A DNA stretch of 64,000 bases from Prochlorococcus sp. AG-402-O21 (GTDB lineage: Bacteria; Cyanobacteriota; Cyanobacteriia; PCC-6307; Cyanobiaceae), in the NCBI GenBank assembly GCA_003216375.1, contig QCIZ01000001.1, forward strand, positions 1-64,000, in the 5' to 3' direction. The translations under genes and the position numbers were made by a program. The notes under the pieces were generated by a model. That model was not told where the DNA came from and ran no database searches. It worked only from the letters and a program-made list of their open reading frames with translations. Below are positions 4,176-62,929 of this stretch, piece by piece (within the stretch, counting starts at the first letter, position 1; every line of letters starts with the position of its first letter).

Positions 4176-4624
4176 TTCGTAACAGATTCAGAATTGAGAG
4201 AAAGAATTTTAGGTTCTTGCGCTGAATGAGGATGATCAGAGCCTTTATAAACTTTGAGTTTCGTAAATAATTGCCTTCCTAATCTTGTGTGAGGCAGCAT
4301 TCCTTTAATTGCCTTTTCAACTATTCTCTCAGGGATTCTAGATTGAAGAGCCTTAAAGGTTTCAACTTTCATACCACCTGGACGTCCGGAATGTCTGCGG
4401 TAAAGCTTTTGATCTGATTTTTTGCCGGTTACTTTGATCTTTTCAGCATTGACGACAATAACAAAATCTCCAGTATCTAAGTGAGGAGTAAAATTTGGCT
4501 TTGTCTTACCCCTTAAGACACTAGCAACTTCAGTTGCTAGTCGACCAAGAGTCTGATTCTCTGCATCCACCAGAAACCACTGGCGATCTATTGAATCCGG
4601 CGATGGAACTGATGTTTTGTTCAT
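4172..4624 (-). CDS. rplM: Ribosomal protein uL13
   Basis: Large-subunit assembly protein of 150 residues. Recognised by [21 protein letters not shown], the core [18 protein letters not shown] and the family block [14 protein letters not shown]. First gene of the rplM-rpsI-rpmE-prfA set. A 189-nt gap separates it from truA and could hold its own promoter; a TATTAT at 4668-4673 (minus strand) sits 19 nt from a TTGACT, which is suggestive but not convincing. Confidence 0.98.
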
Positions 4625-41002: not shown

Positions 41003-42394
41003 TTAATCAAGAAGATCAAATTCTTTCAATTGTGAAATAGGAAAAAATATTGTAATTCCTTTATCTCGCCTATTCGTAAGACGACCACCAAGACTTTTCA
41101 AAAGCCTTTGCGTTGCAGCCTGACTAAGCTGCAAATTACCTGTGGATGGATTCCAACTAAGTACTGGTCCAATTTCTTCATTCGAAACACTTTCTGAGAT
41201 TTTAGAATGAGTAGCTGTGGAAAGTTGAGTTAAAATCTGAAGTTTTACTCTTTGCCCAGCTGGCCTTAATTTCAAAGTTAATTCCCCGCCCGTTTGCAAT
41301 CCACGACTGTTACGGTCAATTAGACCTGTCAGCATTAATTCAAGCCCTTCAGAATCACTCAAAACTTTTGGTAAATCTGGTGTGATGTCAAGAATAAGTT
41401 TCAAACCTTTTCGCTCTAACTGATTACTCCAAACCGGATATAGGCTTGTGAGCATTTTCCCTAAATCAGTTAAAGCCAAATTTGTTTTCTCTGGCTTGCT
41501 TCTCTCTAACTCCACTGCATTAAAAATCAAACCAAAACGATCAATTTGTTCTGTACATTCAATATCTATTTGCTTTAAACGCGTTTCAACGACTTTAGGT
41601 AAATCTTGCTTTCTTAAAAGAGATCTTATTAAAGTTCTTATAGTCGCCAATGGAGTTCTAATTTCATGTGTTAAAGCCTCTAGTAAGGAAATTTCACTAT
41701 TTTTTGAACTTGATTTGTGATCATTAATTAAATTATCTGGCAAAGTTTGAATATTCAAACTTGGTGCAATATCTGCGAGACGTTGAGATAGTAGAGGCCA
41801 AAATACTTTAGATAAATCATCATTAGTTTTTAGCTGACCCATTTCTCCTAGTGCGTTTCGGAGATTATTTGCTTGTTCAACATTTTCTCTATTCAATCTA
41901 TTATCGAGTAATGTCAAAAGATCACTCAAAGTCTCAGGATCACTTCGCATCAATAATTTTCTCTCCTGACAGTTACCTTCCAGAGCTAAAGCAATTTGAA
42001 TTTCAGGAGTAATTACTATTAGCAAAGGATCGTTTCCATCTTCCTCAAGAAGAGTCAAGCGCTCATAGCCTGAAGAATTATTATGGAAATCCATCGAAAC
42101 TGATTGACTTGGAGGCAACATCCCTATGGAAGGGTTTTTAAGGTTTAATAAATCCTTAGGCGCCCAAACCCATCCTTGAAATTTCTTGAGTAATTTAGGT
42201 TCGTATAATGCTGGCAAAGGTGAAGACATCCATAAACCTCTTGTAAGGTTCATTGGCAACAAAATATCTGACTGAAGAGTATCTAGAGCTGCCCACCACA
42301 TTCTCCTTACTGCAGATTCACTGCATGTGGCATGAGGTACACCTTCAGCCATTCTTTTTTGTAAAGCTTGAATAGTAATTAGAGGTGTTTTCAC
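41003..42394 (-). CDS. Soluble histidine kinase-like protein, degenerate ATPase domain
   Basis: A 463-residue protein with no membrane segment. The N-terminal 230 residues form a GAF-like sensory region of unclear type. The phosphoacceptor motif is LTHEIRTPLATI with His243. The following ATPase domain is poor: where an N box is expected it reads LMLTGLIDRNSRGL, and no clear GxG box is present. It may be an inactive or cross-acting kinase. The start is GTG with GGAGG five bases upstream. No response regulator is adjacent. Confidence 0.75.
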   Translation of the reverse strand: MKTPLITIQALQKRMAEGVPHATCSESAVRRMWWAALDTLQSDILLPMNLTRGLWMSSPLPALYEPKLLKKFQGWVWAPKDLLNLKNPSIGMLPPSQSVSMDFHNNSSGYERLTLLEEDGNDPLLIVITPEIQIALALEGNCQERKLLMRSDPETLSDLLTLLDNRLNRENVEQANNLRNALGEMGQLKTNDDLSKVFWPLLSQRLADIAPSLNIQTLPDNLINDHKSSSKNSEISLLEALTHEIRTPLATIRTLIRSLLRKQDLPKVVETRLKQIDIECTEQIDRFGLIFNAVELERSKPEKTNLALTDLGKMLTSLYPVWSNQLERKGLKLILDITPDLPKVLSDSEGLELMLTGLIDRNSRGLQTGGELTLKLRPAGQRVKLQILTQLSTATHSKISESVSNEEIGPVLSWNPSTGNLQLSQAATQRLLKSLGGRLTNRRDKGITIFFPISQLKEFDLLD

Positions 42395-48935: not shown

Positions 48936-50156
48936 CTATGAACGCTGGGACAAGTGAGTAGAAATAATAAGGGCTAGAGATTGACTGCCACCTACCTCGC
49001 CCATCCTTTTAGATCCTCTTAAACCAATAGCGTATCTATCAAAATCAGAATTCAATAAAAACTCAACTCGTTTTGCGAGAGCTTGATAACCTTTTGCAAT
49101 AGCTACAGCTCCTCCCAATAAACGACTTTGACGCTTAGCAAAATTGAAATTAAATTGAGGTCCTTTTCCAGGTAAGGAGACACATGGGATACCTAAACCT
49201 ACCAATTGTTCAGTAGCTGTTCCTGCATTCGCTACTCCTACTTCTCCCCAATTAGCCCAAGAAGAGAATTGATTAAAGCCAATTAATATAAGTAAGGATT
49301 TTTTTTTCCATATTTCCGAAACCCCTAATTCATCTATTGATTCATAAGTTGATTTAAAACCTAAGTCAATTAATATCAATTTTATTGTTTTACTCATTGA
49401 AGAAGAATTTAAAGGCAAAAAGACTACCAAGGGAGAGGAATGTTGAATAAGTTGAATTGCAATTAAAAGTTTTTTAAAATTCTGATAAGCCTCAGGTAAA
49501 CGACTTCCACATAACAAAATCAAACGTCTATATCTTTCAAAATTTTTAGGAAATTCTTTCTTCGCCAAACCATCCATCATCGGATTCCCAGGGGCAACTG
49601 CTGCGACTCTGTGATTCCTTAAACCTCTTGCAGTGATTTTGTCTCTTACTGCAACCATTTTACAACGACTAGATCGCATCAACCAATATTCCCATGGATC
49701 CCACTCTGTTCCTTTTAATCGATGATAAATATCACTCAAGGAGAATCTTGGTCCACTTGACCATGTGTAATCACTTTTAGGAGTGCCAATAAAAAAATAA
49801 TCTGCACCACTAGCCCATGCAAAAAGAAGAGGTAATAAATCTCCAACTGCAACAATAATTCTTCCCTCTCTCGCTGATCTATGAATAAAAGCCCATTGCC
49901 TCCAAAGGCTCCAAATTAATCCAGCTTGTAAATCTAAAATTAGTCCACTAAGACTCTGATTACTAAATCCACCGCTTGGTAAAAATGTTGAGCGACCAAT
50001 CTTGGTAAGCCAGCCATCTTTTATGAGCTTTTTAAACACTTTTCCTTCTCCAACCATTGGGAGCACTTCCTGGGAAACATCCGGATTAATTTTGTGAAGT
50101 GCCTCCATGATTTGGCAGGCAATCGTATCTTCTCCATGTCCATTACAAAGAAACAA
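48936..50156 (-). CDS. Lipid-A-disaccharide synthase-related protein
   Basis: A GT19/LpxB-like glycosyltransferase fold, about 406 residues from a TTG at 50156. Marks are LFLCNGHGEDTIACQIMEAL at the start, DYFFIGTPKSDY, VAAVAPGNPMMDGL, and ANAGTATEQLVGLGIPCVSLPGKGPQF in the C-terminal donor domain. Cyanobacteria carry this family beside, or in place of, true LpxB. The frame is open to 50360, but that extension reads through the antisense of tRNA-Cys and is not real. A family member normally starts one or two residues before LFLSNGHGED. Confidence 0.82.
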   Translation of the reverse strand: MFLCNGHGEDTIACQIMEALHKINPDVSQEVLPMVGEGKVFKKLIKDGWLTKIGRSTFLPSGGFSNQSLSGLILDLQAGLIWSLWRQWAFIHRSAREGRIIVAVGDLLPLLFAWASGADYFFIGTPKSDYTWSSGPRFSLSDIYHRLKGTEWDPWEYWLMRSSRCKMVAVRDKITARGLRNHRVAAVAPGNPMMDGLAKKEFPKNFERYRRLILLCGSRLPEAYQNFKKLLIAIQLIQHSSPLVVFLPLNSSSMSKTIKLILIDLGFKSTYESIDELGVSEIWKKKSLLILIGFNQFSSWANWGEVGVANAGTATEQLVGLGIPCVSLPGKGPQFNFNFAKRQSRLLGGAVAIAKGYQALAKRVEFLLNSDFDRYAIGLRGSKRMGEVGGSQSLALIISTHLSQRS

Positions 50157-50213
50157 AAGTTTTTGTTCAGCTTGGCTGATACGATTTGAATTGGAAATGA
50201 AGATTTCATTTTC

Positions 50214-50284
50214 GGCGGCATGGCCAAGTGGTAAGGCAGAGGATTGCAAATCCTTTATCCCCAGTTCGAATCTGGGTGCCGCCT
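50214..50284 (+). tRNA. tRNA-Cys (GCA)
   Basis: A 71-nt cloverleaf. The acceptor GGCGGCA pairs with TGCCGCC, with the U discriminator typical of cysteine tRNA. The anticodon GCA lies in GGATTGCAAATCC, and the T-arm has AGTTCGAATCT. It is 57 nt from the LpxB-related start on the other strand and precedes a lineage-variable patch. CCA is not encoded. Confidence 0.95.
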
Positions 50285-50587
50285 TTATTAATTTACGCTT
50301 TATTTCCCTGAGAACCCTTCCCAGTACTATGCTCCATGTGTAGCGAGTAGCAAGTTTCAAGAAGGATCAGAAATTGATAAGTTGATTTTGTTTCCCGATC
50401 GAAATATTGATCATTTTTACCGTCAGTCTTTAAAAGAACCACTAATGAAAAGCTGGTAGCCAATCAAAAATACCAACTATTTAGATATATCATATGTTCA
50501 TATCTTTATTTAGTATTTCATTCGTTTAAAAAGTAGAAAGTAATATTAGTCATGAACTAATATTAAACTCAATTAGAAATAATAACA
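50285..50587. other. 303-bp intergenic region after tRNA-Cys
   Basis: No gene is visible. The last 130 bp are very AT-rich and contain two inverted repeats: AGATAT/ATATCT around 50473-50496, and a perfect 10-bp pair at 50541-50565. This is the promoter region of the following small gene. Confidence 0.6.
50541..50565 (+). promoter_or_regulatory. Perfect palindrome upstream of a small HTH-like gene
   Basis: TAATATTAGT (50541-50550), a 5-nt spacer CATGA, and ACTAATATTA (50556-50565) form a perfect 10-bp inverted repeat, 22 bp before the GTG start. It could be an operator for an autoregulator or a short mRNA hairpin. The long exact match is unlikely by chance even in AT-rich DNA. Confidence 0.55.
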
Positions 50588-51019
50588 GTGACTGATCAAA
50601 TTGAATTCAGTTCTTTTTTTAGATTATTAAATTCAATAAAAGAGGGAGACTCGGAAAAAATATCTTTATTAGATGAACAAATTAGTGAATTTAAAAATGG
50701 TGTCAATTCTAAAAATTTTCTAGAAGAGTTGGGAGCTATTTATCTTTCAGTAGGTGTCACAGAGTTATATAATTTTACCAATCAAAAGGATCTAAAATCT
50801 ATCGGCCTAATAGATAAAGAAGAATGGGAAAGTTTATCTGAAAAAAATCAACAGGAGCTACCCGTCTACCTTGCTAATAAAATGATTGAGTACATTAAAG
50901 AAAACAAAAAAGTGAAAGAAATTTCCAAGAAGTGGAATGTTAGAGAAGGTGAAATTAGAAAGCACATAACAAAAATGGCAAGGTATATTACTGAGGGGAT
51001 AATTGATGTGATTGAATAA
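50588..51019 (+). CDS. Hypothetical 143-residue protein with HTH-like C terminus
   Basis: I do not recognise this protein. It starts with GTG after the palindrome. It is acidic and helical in the first 100 residues; the segment VKEISKKWNVREGEIRKHITKM (about 109-130) looks like a helix-turn-helix (EISKKWNVREGEIRKHI). Very AT-rich, with Lys/Ile/Asn-rich composition unlike the core genes around it. It may be a small regulator specific to some strains. Function unassigned. Confidence 0.6.
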   Translation: MTDQIEFSSFFRLLNSIKEGDSEKISLLDEQISEFKNGVNSKNFLEELGAIYLSVGVTELYNFTNQKDLKSIGLIDKEEWESLSEKNQQELPVYLANKMIEYIKENKKVKEISKKWNVREGEIRKHITKMARYITEGIIDVIE

Positions 51020-51102: not shown

Positions 51103-51282
51103 TTAATATTCATTGTCTGCAACGCAAATCCCAAGGCATCTTATACCGTTACTTGCTGTTCTACCACAATGATTACATAGTACCTTTTCAATTTTATTAT
51201 CTCCTAAATTGTCTTTTTGACTTTCTTGATTACTATTATTTTTTTCCAAAGAAAAATCTTTTAATGCGTTTAATTTATTCAT
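51103..51282 (-). CDS. 59-residue four-cysteine zinc-ribbon-like protein
   Basis: Found by translating the gap by hand. ATG at 51282, stop at 51103-51105. The C-terminal part CNHCGRTASNGIRCLGICVADN has Cys36, Cys39, Cys49 and Cys53 (CX2C-X9-CX3C), a likely metal site. The N-terminal 30 residues are Asn/Lys/Ser-rich and probably disordered. I recall similar short proteins in Prochlorococcus without a known role. Divergent from the aldo/keto reductase (48 nt). Confidence 0.75.
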   Translation of the reverse strand: MNKLNALKDFSLEKNNSNQESQKDNLGDNKIEKVLCNHCGRTASNGIRCLGICVADNEY

Positions 51283-60215: not shown

Positions 60216-61568
60216 TTAAGAATCAAACTCCATCAATCTAAATGATTCTAGAAGTGTTTTTTCATTACCTAGATTCCCTGGGAAAGTAACCACTGGCAAA
60301 TTATTTTGATCAGAACTACTCTGTACTATAGACAAGCCTGGTAATATTTGACCTTTTAAAATTACTTGATTAAAATTTAATCCTCTTTGAAGTAGAAGTT
60401 GTGTTGTAATACCTCCTTTACTAATAATATATCCGAATTTATTACTTATTTTCCCAACTAAGATTGCCATAAACTCAGCCAATTCAAGCCCATACTTCAT
60501 TCTTGTAGAGTGAGATGAAAATTGCATCTCTTCACGAGTTGTATATAAAACAGGTATTTTTTTTGTATACAAAATATTATCTATTTTCGATAATATTTTA
60601 TCCTCCAAATCTAAAATTAGATTTTTACAATCTTCTGAAGTGAAAATATCAGCTAATTTACTGACAGGTATTTCCAAACCTTTACAGGAATTATCTTTCA
60701 ATAAAAAATCTAGTTGAGCTGTCGCTAATTTCACATGGGAACCGACCATTATCAAACCTGGTTTATATTTAAACTGATTATTTTTAGATTTCAAAGATAC
60801 TAAATCTGCAGTACTTTTAGGGTTAATTGGTAATCCAGATAAAGAATTAATAAAGCTTGCTGCTGTTCTGAAAAGAAATCTTTTCTCTTTAGAAACAACT
60901 TTAATCGCTCTAGCAAGTGTTTCTAAATGATATGGTAATTTAGCATCCACGACTACTGAAATATTATTTTCCAATTGAGACAAAAAGCTTAAAAGAGATA
61001 TAAAACCTTCTTCATTATTAAAAGCGATTTCTAATTGTTTAATTTCTACATGCAAGATTTTTTCCGCCTGAATCTTTCCAAAACTTTTTTCTTCAATCCA
61101 TTTAGCTAAATCACTTGTAGAAAAACCAAAAACACTATCACGACCAAAATCAGTTCTGTGGACAGGTATCCCATTTAGATAATGAATACCTTTTTCAGTT
61201 GTTCTACCACCTTCCAAAAAAGCTGGAATATGAAATGTTGCATGAAATGGTCCTAATTCCTCAGCAAGAATTGCAGGCTCCAAAACACCATGACCACGCA
61301 ATGTTGAATCACCTCTACTGATATAAAAATAATCTTCTTTAGAATATCCTTGTATTAAAAAAAACTTCTTAATAGATGAACATATTGCTCTAGTTTTCTC
61401 AACAGCCAAATCAGACGACAAAGATCTTGTGTTCGCAAGTATAAATATCAAAGGTGAAGGCTGTTTAAATGCTTTCTCTAGAGTTTGCTCATCCCAATTT
61501 AATAATAATGGGCATCCATAAACAGTTTGAGATCCAGTTGGATCATCATCAAAAATAATTATTTTCAT
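60216..61568 (-). CDS. Four-carbon acid sugar kinase family protein (DUF1537)
   Basis: A 450-residue protein of the YgbK/DtnK/OtnK family, in which characterised members phosphorylate threonate, erythronate or 2-oxo-tetronate at the 4-OH. The N-terminal motif is FDDDPTGSQTVYG (Asp7-Asp9), with SRGDSTLRGHGVLE. The C-terminal nucleotide-binding part has SKGGITTQLLLQ and LPVVTFPGNLGNE. It lies 30 nt from the hydroxy-acid oxidase gene, on the same strand and just downstream. The true substrate is unknown. Lys/Ser-rich and AT-rich. Confidence 0.88.
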   Translation of the reverse strand: MKIIIFDDDPTGSQTVYGCPLLLNWDEQTLEKAFKQPSPLIFILANTRSLSSDLAVEKTRAICSSIKKFFLIQGYSKEDYFYISRGDSTLRGHGVLEPAILAEELGPFHATFHIPAFLEGGRTTEKGIHYLNGIPVHRTDFGRDSVFGFSTSDLAKWIEEKSFGKIQAEKILHVEIKQLEIAFNNEEGFISLLSFLSQLENNISVVVDAKLPYHLETLARAIKVVSKEKRFLFRTAASFINSLSGLPINPKSTADLVSLKSKNNQFKYKPGLIMVGSHVKLATAQLDFLLKDNSCKGLEIPVSKLADIFTSEDCKNLILDLEDKILSKIDNILYTKKIPVLYTTREEMQFSSHSTRMKYGLELAEFMAILVGKISNKFGYIISKGGITTQLLLQRGLNFNQVILKGQILPGLSIVQSSSDQNNLPVVTFPGNLGNEKTLLESFRLMEFDS

Positions 61569-61598: not shown

Positions 61599-62783
61599 TT
61601 ATTCAAATCTCTCCCAACTTTCAGGGACTTGAATATAAGATTTATTCAAATCGGCAACAGATCCACAGCCCAATAGTTTCATTGTTCTGATTATGTCTGT
61701 TTGAAGAATTTCTATAGCTCTGGCAACGCCTTTGCCTCCCGCAGCAGCAAGTCCATAAGCATATGCTCTACCTATCAAAACCCCTTTTGCCCCAAGACAT
61801 AATGCTTTAACGACATCACTACCACTGCGAATACCTCCATCTAATAACACATCTATTTTTCCATTGACTGCAGCTAAAATTTCAGGCAAAACACGTATCG
61901 TGGGAGCAACGCTATCAAGTTGCCTGGCTCCATGATTAGAAATAACAATTGCATCAGCACCTAGCTCGGCCGCTTTTTTTGCGTCATCACCAATATGTAT
62001 ACCTTTAACAATAATTTTTCCACCCCACGCCTCGCGTATCCATTTAAGATCCTCCCAAGTAACAACTGATTGCTCTAAAGCAGGACCAATTGCCGTATAG
62101 CCCATAGGGCCATCATCTAATTGCACATTCGGAAAACTCATTAAACCTCCATCACTTAACCATTGAGTCAACCAACATGGTTTAACTAATATTTGAGGAA
62201 TATAAGGAAGCATCTCAAAAGGATTCCTCGACAAAAGCTGTTGGGTTCCAGATCGCATATCTCTTTCCCTTAAGCCAGATACAGGTGTATCAATTGTTAC
62301 AACTATTGCTGAGAATCCTGCCTTTTTGGCTCTAGCAATTGTTTTCAGCGCGACTTCTTTACCGCCTAGCAAATAAAGCTGATACCAAGCTGGCCCGCTT
62401 GTAGCAGCTTTAACATCTTCTAATAAACAACCTGAAAGAGTAGATAAGGTATATCCAGTTCCAGCTTTTCCTGCCTCTCTAGCTGCAACAACTTCTCCCT
62501 TTGGATAGAACATCCTGCTACTCCCTACTGGTCCCAACAAAAAAGGAAGTTGAAATTTCTGATCTAAAACAGATATTCCAAGATCACACGATGGAACAGA
62601 GACTGCACATCTAGGACGAAATAAAATTTCATTATATGCGTTGCAATTTTGTGAAAGTGTTTGTTCTCTATCTGCACCGCTATCTATATAGTTAAAAACC
62701 ATTGCCGGTAGACGATTTTTAGCTCTTGACCTTAGGTCGTCAATATTAAGTACTCCTGGAGAGGAAACATCTGCTCCTAACAT
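61599..62783 (-). CDS. FMN-dependent 2-hydroxy-acid oxidase/dehydrogenase
   Basis: A 394-residue TIM-barrel flavoprotein of the glycolate oxidase/LldD family. FMN and substrate residues: YTLSTLSGC, WYQLYL, TIDTPVSGLRERDMR, and the catalytic SNHGARQLDS with His284 and Arg287. Glycolate, lactate or a sugar acid are all possible substrates. Cotranscription with an acid-sugar kinase favours a 2-hydroxy sugar acid over glycolate. Its start has a 146-nt AT-rich region upstream. Confidence 0.88.
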   Translation of the reverse strand: MLGADVSSPGVLNIDDLRSRAKNRLPAMVFNYIDSGADREQTLSQNCNAYNEILFRPRCAVSVPSCDLGISVLDQKFQLPFLLGPVGSSRMFYPKGEVVAAREAGKAGTGYTLSTLSGCLLEDVKAATSGPAWYQLYLLGGKEVALKTIARAKKAGFSAIVVTIDTPVSGLRERDMRSGTQQLLSRNPFEMLPYIPQILVKPCWLTQWLSDGGLMSFPNVQLDDGPMGYTAIGPALEQSVVTWEDLKWIREAWGGKIIVKGIHIGDDAKKAAELGADAIVISNHGARQLDSVAPTIRVLPEILAAVNGKIDVLLDGGIRSGSDVVKALCLGAKGVLIGRAYAYGLAAAGGKGVARAIEILQTDIIRTMKLLGCGSVADLNKSYIQVPESWERFE

Positions 62784-62929
62784 TATTCATCACAAATTCA
62801 TGAATAATGAATCTATAATATATTGATCGTAGATGCAAAAACTAACAAAATATTGAAATATTTGTCATACAAAAAGCTATAAATTGAATTTAATTAGTGA
62901 CAAATTATAATACTCAAAAACTTAACTAA

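Follow-up and report, generated by a model that had tools for sequence, protein, structure and literature searches.

The locus lies in a window of 64,000 nt, which is the whole stretch of DNA analysed here, and comprises a tRNA-Cys gene, an AT-rich intergenic stretch carrying a perfect inverted repeat, and a small gene of 143 codons that begins with GTG (Table 1). An earlier note on this DNA had described an exact 10-bp inverted repeat with a 5-nt spacer, 22 bp ahead of the gene, and this arrangement is present as described: all 10 of the 10 arm positions pair, and the start codon follows 22 nt past the end of the repeat. The small gene converges on a gene for a 59-aa zinc-ribbon-like protein, which carries the pattern CNHCGR...RCLGIC and has no Pfam match. 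On the minus strand, a mechanically called open reading frame of 474 aa (48936-50360) runs through the tRNA-Cys in antisense and probably begins, in reality, closer to 50224.

Table 1. Features of the tRNA-Cys locus, in window coordinates.
Feature	Position	Strand	Remarks
tRNA-Cys (GCA)	50214..50284	+	Integration site of islands in congeners, as the aligned repeats indicate
Empty attachment-like site: tRNA-Cys 3' end plus ~77 nt	50263..50361	+	Stretch directly repeated around congener inserts; a neighbour lying outside the gene
Conserved block TTTCATTCGTTTAAAAAGTA, just upstream of the palindrome	50516..50535	+	Possible core promoter; congeners have TTTCATTACAATTAAATAG instead
Perfect palindrome TAATATTAGT-CATGA-ACTAATATTA	50541..50565	.	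In 4/31 congeners examined (one clade), one per genome
Spacer and right arm (CATGAACTAATATTAA)	50551..50566	+	Half kept genus-wide as ATGAATTAATATTAA; most other congeners pair it downstream, TTAATAT-N5-ATATTAA
Gene of 143-aa all-helical protein, subfamily A, low-light Prochlorococcus family without Pfam/NCBIfam name	50588..51019	+	GTG start
HTH-like segment, codons 105-134	50900..50989	+	Low-confidence helices 106-116 and 120-142; invariant Trp116
Convergent gene of 59-aa zinc-ribbon-like protein	51103..51282	-	Adjoins the family gene in several genera

The protein belongs to a nameless family, as had been claimed: it matches no family of Pfam, NCBIfam or PHROGs at curated cut-offs, and a search of phage records found no protein related to it. 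Within the genus, the gene is present as a single copy in each of the 17 genomes that are near-complete and low in contamination, and in 35 of 41 genomes when incomplete ones are counted. Among the four closest genomes, 90, 92 and 66% of first, second and third codon positions are invariant, which indicates that the gene is under purifying selection. The family occurs in 34 of the 59 genera sampled of the taxonomic family, and when 271 near-complete genomes of the order were searched with a profile, no members came up outside those types of genera. The homologues, about 100 in number, divide into two main groups, A (to which this gene belongs) and B, and many genomes have both. The window is from a Prochlorococcus genome, and the related records bear the name Prochlorococcus sp.; we take G002, G050 and G110 to be strains NATL2A, SS120 and MIT9313, from which it follows that the genus of the window is presumably the low-light I clade, and we likewise take the genus of G057 (genomes of 1.5-1.7 Mb) to be the high-light clade. 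In 200 genomes of this presumed high-light genus there was no credible match to the family; two weak matches (E 0.002-0.004) lie inside a 1169-aa open reading frame and were rejected. Two near-complete genomes of another genus, g32, also lack the family and a third has it, so that not all small-genome relatives are without it. A nameless family that is found in many low-light lineages and that the high-light genus apparently lacks is a candidate lineage marker.

The surroundings of the gene are also stable. At the congener loci checked, tRNA-Cys flanks it on one side, and on the other come the convergent zinc-ribbon-like gene, a gene for an aldo/keto reductase and one more conserved gene. This second flank still has the zinc-ribbon-like gene and purM/panC in several genera besides this one, where tRNA-Cys, if seen, is 2-4 kb away. 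The block 3' of tRNA-Cys is duplicated in several congeners, and the aligned copies define a direct repeat of ~99 bp (the tRNA 3' end plus ~77 nt) that flanks inserts between tRNA-Cys and the family gene. The left copy includes a whole tRNA-Cys, and the right copy, nearer to the family gene, is a decayed remnant; the offset between copies is ~0.5 kb at L164, 1.0 kb at L161, 2.8 kb at L162, 10 kb at L159 and 12.8 kb at L158. The two largest inserts (L158 and L159) encode an integrase-type protein of 454 or 464 aa, with no match in Pfam, PHROGs or the PDB, together with a serine recombinase, and that of L158 also encodes a complete type I restriction system. Islands with a novel picocyanobacterial tyrosine integrase at tRNA-Cys or tRNA-Phe have been described (PMC10187409); the text of that paper, as searched, gives these tRNAs as the probable sites and does not use the word 'attachment'. 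The two inserts resemble these islands in combining a large integrase-type gene with a small serine recombinase and, in one case, type I restriction, and the 454/464-aa protein is tentatively placed in the published integrase family by its size, its context and an HxxR...Y motif seen by eye. The window differs in that its gene is chromosomal flank outside the element and its site is empty.

Judging from these repeats, elements in the relatives do integrate at tRNA-Cys, and the gene sits just outside the empty site of the window. The earlier remark that no att repeat is present is thus true of the window, but congeners do have att-like repeats at this tRNA. The accompanying hint that the gene itself had been acquired here with a mobile element fares worse, and we regard such an origin as extremely improbable. 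That the tRNA receives insertions in congeners speaks for it, but the gene is in every near-complete genome of the genus, follows one tree within the genus, keeps its purM/panC-side neighbours across several genera, and lies outside the bounding repeats at all occupied sites examined; an acquired-island identity was therefore rejected. By distribution and context, the gene is instead a fixed, vertically inherited, long-standing resident of low-light Prochlorococcus. The bounded att-like site makes insertion and excision of the published islands directly testable. Inside the repeat, a 43-nt block after tRNA-Cys (50318-50360) is 93-96% conserved in congeners and contains the tandem pair GTAGCGA-GTAGCAA, possibly an arm site for an integrase.

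Perfect inverted repeats with arms of at least 10 bp and spacers of at most 10 nt number 5 in the window, compared with a mean of 1.4 (range 0-5) in 20 simulations of it, and the probability of at least one such repeat in the AT-rich intergenic stretch of the palindrome is ~0.01. The sequence statistics on their own therefore give only moderate support to the palindrome and are not compelling. The four further repeats of this kind, also with short spacers, are at 4520-4541, 41743-41762, 60571-60599 and 62781-62809. More copies of the palindrome itself, which the earlier note had proposed to look for, did not appear: the window genome has none besides this site at up to 2 mismatches, and at 3 mismatches there are 3 sites genome-wide against 2 for a reversed-pattern control. 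The DNA upstream of the gene has no relative in phage records.

We compared the upstream regions of 31 genomes of the genus, namely the window genome, its 3 closest relatives and 27 other congeners. The palindrome is confined to the window genome and the closest relatives (G032, G026 and G027), which together form one clade (bootstrap/SH-aLRT 95/91), and each of the four has a single site, at this gene; an outer-arm mismatch in two of them cuts the arms to 8 bp. The protein is thus kept across the genus without the palindrome, which is the outcome that the earlier note had itself named as counting against its reading, and the palindrome appears to be a recent local feature. Within its clade, the arms are invariant at 19 of 20 positions, the spacer at 3 of 5, and the adjoining intergenic stretches at 40 of 68 and 14 of 22, so that the arms look constrained; this invariance of the arms beside a variable spacer adds weight to the palindrome beyond the statistics. 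The block just upstream is conserved among the four genomes as well, the other 27 congeners having a different block in common, and a scan of it (50516-50535) for promoter consensus gave no match.

The left arm is absent from the other 27 congeners, and the right half largely persists in them. The best-conserved inverted repeat in the region of these 27 is TTAATAT-N5-ATATTAA, about one arm further downstream, with a mean complementarity of 90%; it sits on the same half-site as the palindrome and has the same 5-nt spacing. G002, G005 and G007 have an exact copy of it at this gene and few or no others elsewhere in their genomes. Across the genus, then, it is a single half-site that is shared, and most members build an inverted repeat on it other than the palindrome: the half-site is ancestral, whereas its partner depends on the clade. 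The order of the tree points weakly to TTATNAT-N5-ATAATAA as the older form and to one compensated change, which is a single event. These patterns could be read as operator turnover within the genus, in which a regulator specific to low-light Prochlorococcus would keep one half-site in its own putative promoter and, in one clade, the partner would have changed sides at unchanged spacing, from the downstream position (TTAATAT-N5-ATATTAA) to the upstream one (TAATATTAGT-N5-ACTAATATTA); taken as a whole, this history is improbable.

The same half-site also admits an explanation in which the palindrome arose incidentally. In the ancestor of the four genomes, template switching would have copied the ancestral half-site into a perfect repeat, the half-site being a -10-like AT-rich element or part of a leader, with no dedicated binding protein and with a gene product that acts through protein contacts. 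An ancestral right half joined in one clade only by a new and exactly complementary left arm is what such copying would leave, and the window's surplus of inverted repeats over expectation fits it too, but near-invariant arms around a variable spacer are unexpected for a neutral by-product; we consider this a real possibility without favouring it strongly. The arm constraint would also suit an operator of some other regulator in the cell, of which the gene is merely a target. That is unlikely, a global regulator usually having several sites and the genome holding no second good copy. For TTTCATTACA we considered an RpaB/HLR1-type site, which we do not claim. Less likely still, the repeat would act in the 5' leader as an RNA hairpin and adjust translation or the stability of the mRNA: taken in isolation it folds at -6.2 kcal/mol, and a hairpin is predicted in all four genomes, but its stability exceeds that of shuffled sequences by 1.5-1.8 s.d. 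in three of them and is no better in the fourth, and it corresponds to no Rfam family, tRNA being the sole Rfam match near the gene.

Whether the protein could bind DNA depends on its C terminus, which the earlier note had likened to a helix-turn-helix (HTH). Searched as a profile, the last 59 residues of subfamily A match PF0095, a transcription factor from Pyrococcus furiosus (PDB 2quf, 2qlz; Pfam PF22315), with a whole-chain E of 1.7e-4 against 2quf and a best-domain i-E of 0.043, aligning to two HTH-like segments of PF0095. The likeness covers the C-terminal 28 residues of the window protein; the HTH stretch alone aligns, and no counterpart was found for the N-terminal 80 residues. Weak Pfam matches of the same segment are enriched in HTH families and include HTH_40 (E 0.0023-0.0064, below the curated cut-off), PF0095-like_C, GerE and CENP-B_N, and for PF22315 the window protein scores 14.5 bits where the curated cut-off is 27. 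AlphaFold places a tight turn between the two C-terminal helices, at a pLDDT of only 53 with an alignment of 20 close congeners and 48 with the sequence alone, values too low for either model to be used, and a Foldseek search of the former model against the PDB gave nothing better than E 3.9. Some HTH signal stands, borderline to moderate, and none of it reaches a curated cut-off. When homologues are divided into A and B by sequence pattern rather than by tree, the mean charge of the putative recognition helix is +1.8 for A but -3.1 for B. Members of subfamily A could well bind DNA through a mildly basic HTH-like C terminus, and subfamily B probably does not do so through this helix; its acidity argues against DNA binding across the family. 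The weak HTH evidence counts in favour of both template switching and a foreign regulator, and the acidic helix of subfamily B in favour of the former.

A constrained cis-element upstream of the gene is likely, and autoregulation by the gene product is plausible but unproven. The earlier reading of the locus as that of an autoregulated DNA-binding protein stays a reasonable hypothesis, since the layout is real, the arms look constrained and there is some HTH signal, although the palindrome that it was built on is restricted to 4 of 31 genomes. In the form that we tentatively prefer, the element would be built on the half-site TTAATATTAA or CTAATATTAA, completed in the clade of the window by the perfect upstream arm and in most other congeners by the downstream arm ATATTAA. 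The gene product, for which we infer an HTH fold, would bind it as a dimer, in the promoter or 5' leader, and so limit its own expression. A private operator of this kind agrees with the occurrence of one site in each genome, with constrained arms, with the signs of an HTH and with the common half-site. Against it stand the restriction of the palindrome to one clade of four genomes, the domain i-E of 0.043, the failure of all family matches to reach curated cut-offs, the unusable structure models, the acidic helix of subfamily B, and the ease with which AT-only inverted repeats arise in AT-rich DNA; we rank it no higher than template switching. Small autoregulated HTH repressors as a class offer the nearest parallel, with a palindrome near the start of the gene, an HTH-like C terminus and one site per genome. 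The present case departs from them in that its HTH is weakly supported, its DNA binding is putative and its palindrome is limited to one clade, and the protein matches no named repressor family at curated cut-offs.

Prochlorococcus is described as having few regulatory proteins (PMC2518516), and a nameless low-light family that is possibly a small regulator would be of interest in this setting. Several genomes have tandem or adjacent copies of the family, and the loci of subfamily B, with its strongly acidic C-terminal helix, include L112, L097, L081 and L086. What the locus offers is an orphan, lineage-bound gene with a clade-specific palindrome; its interest is otherwise modest.
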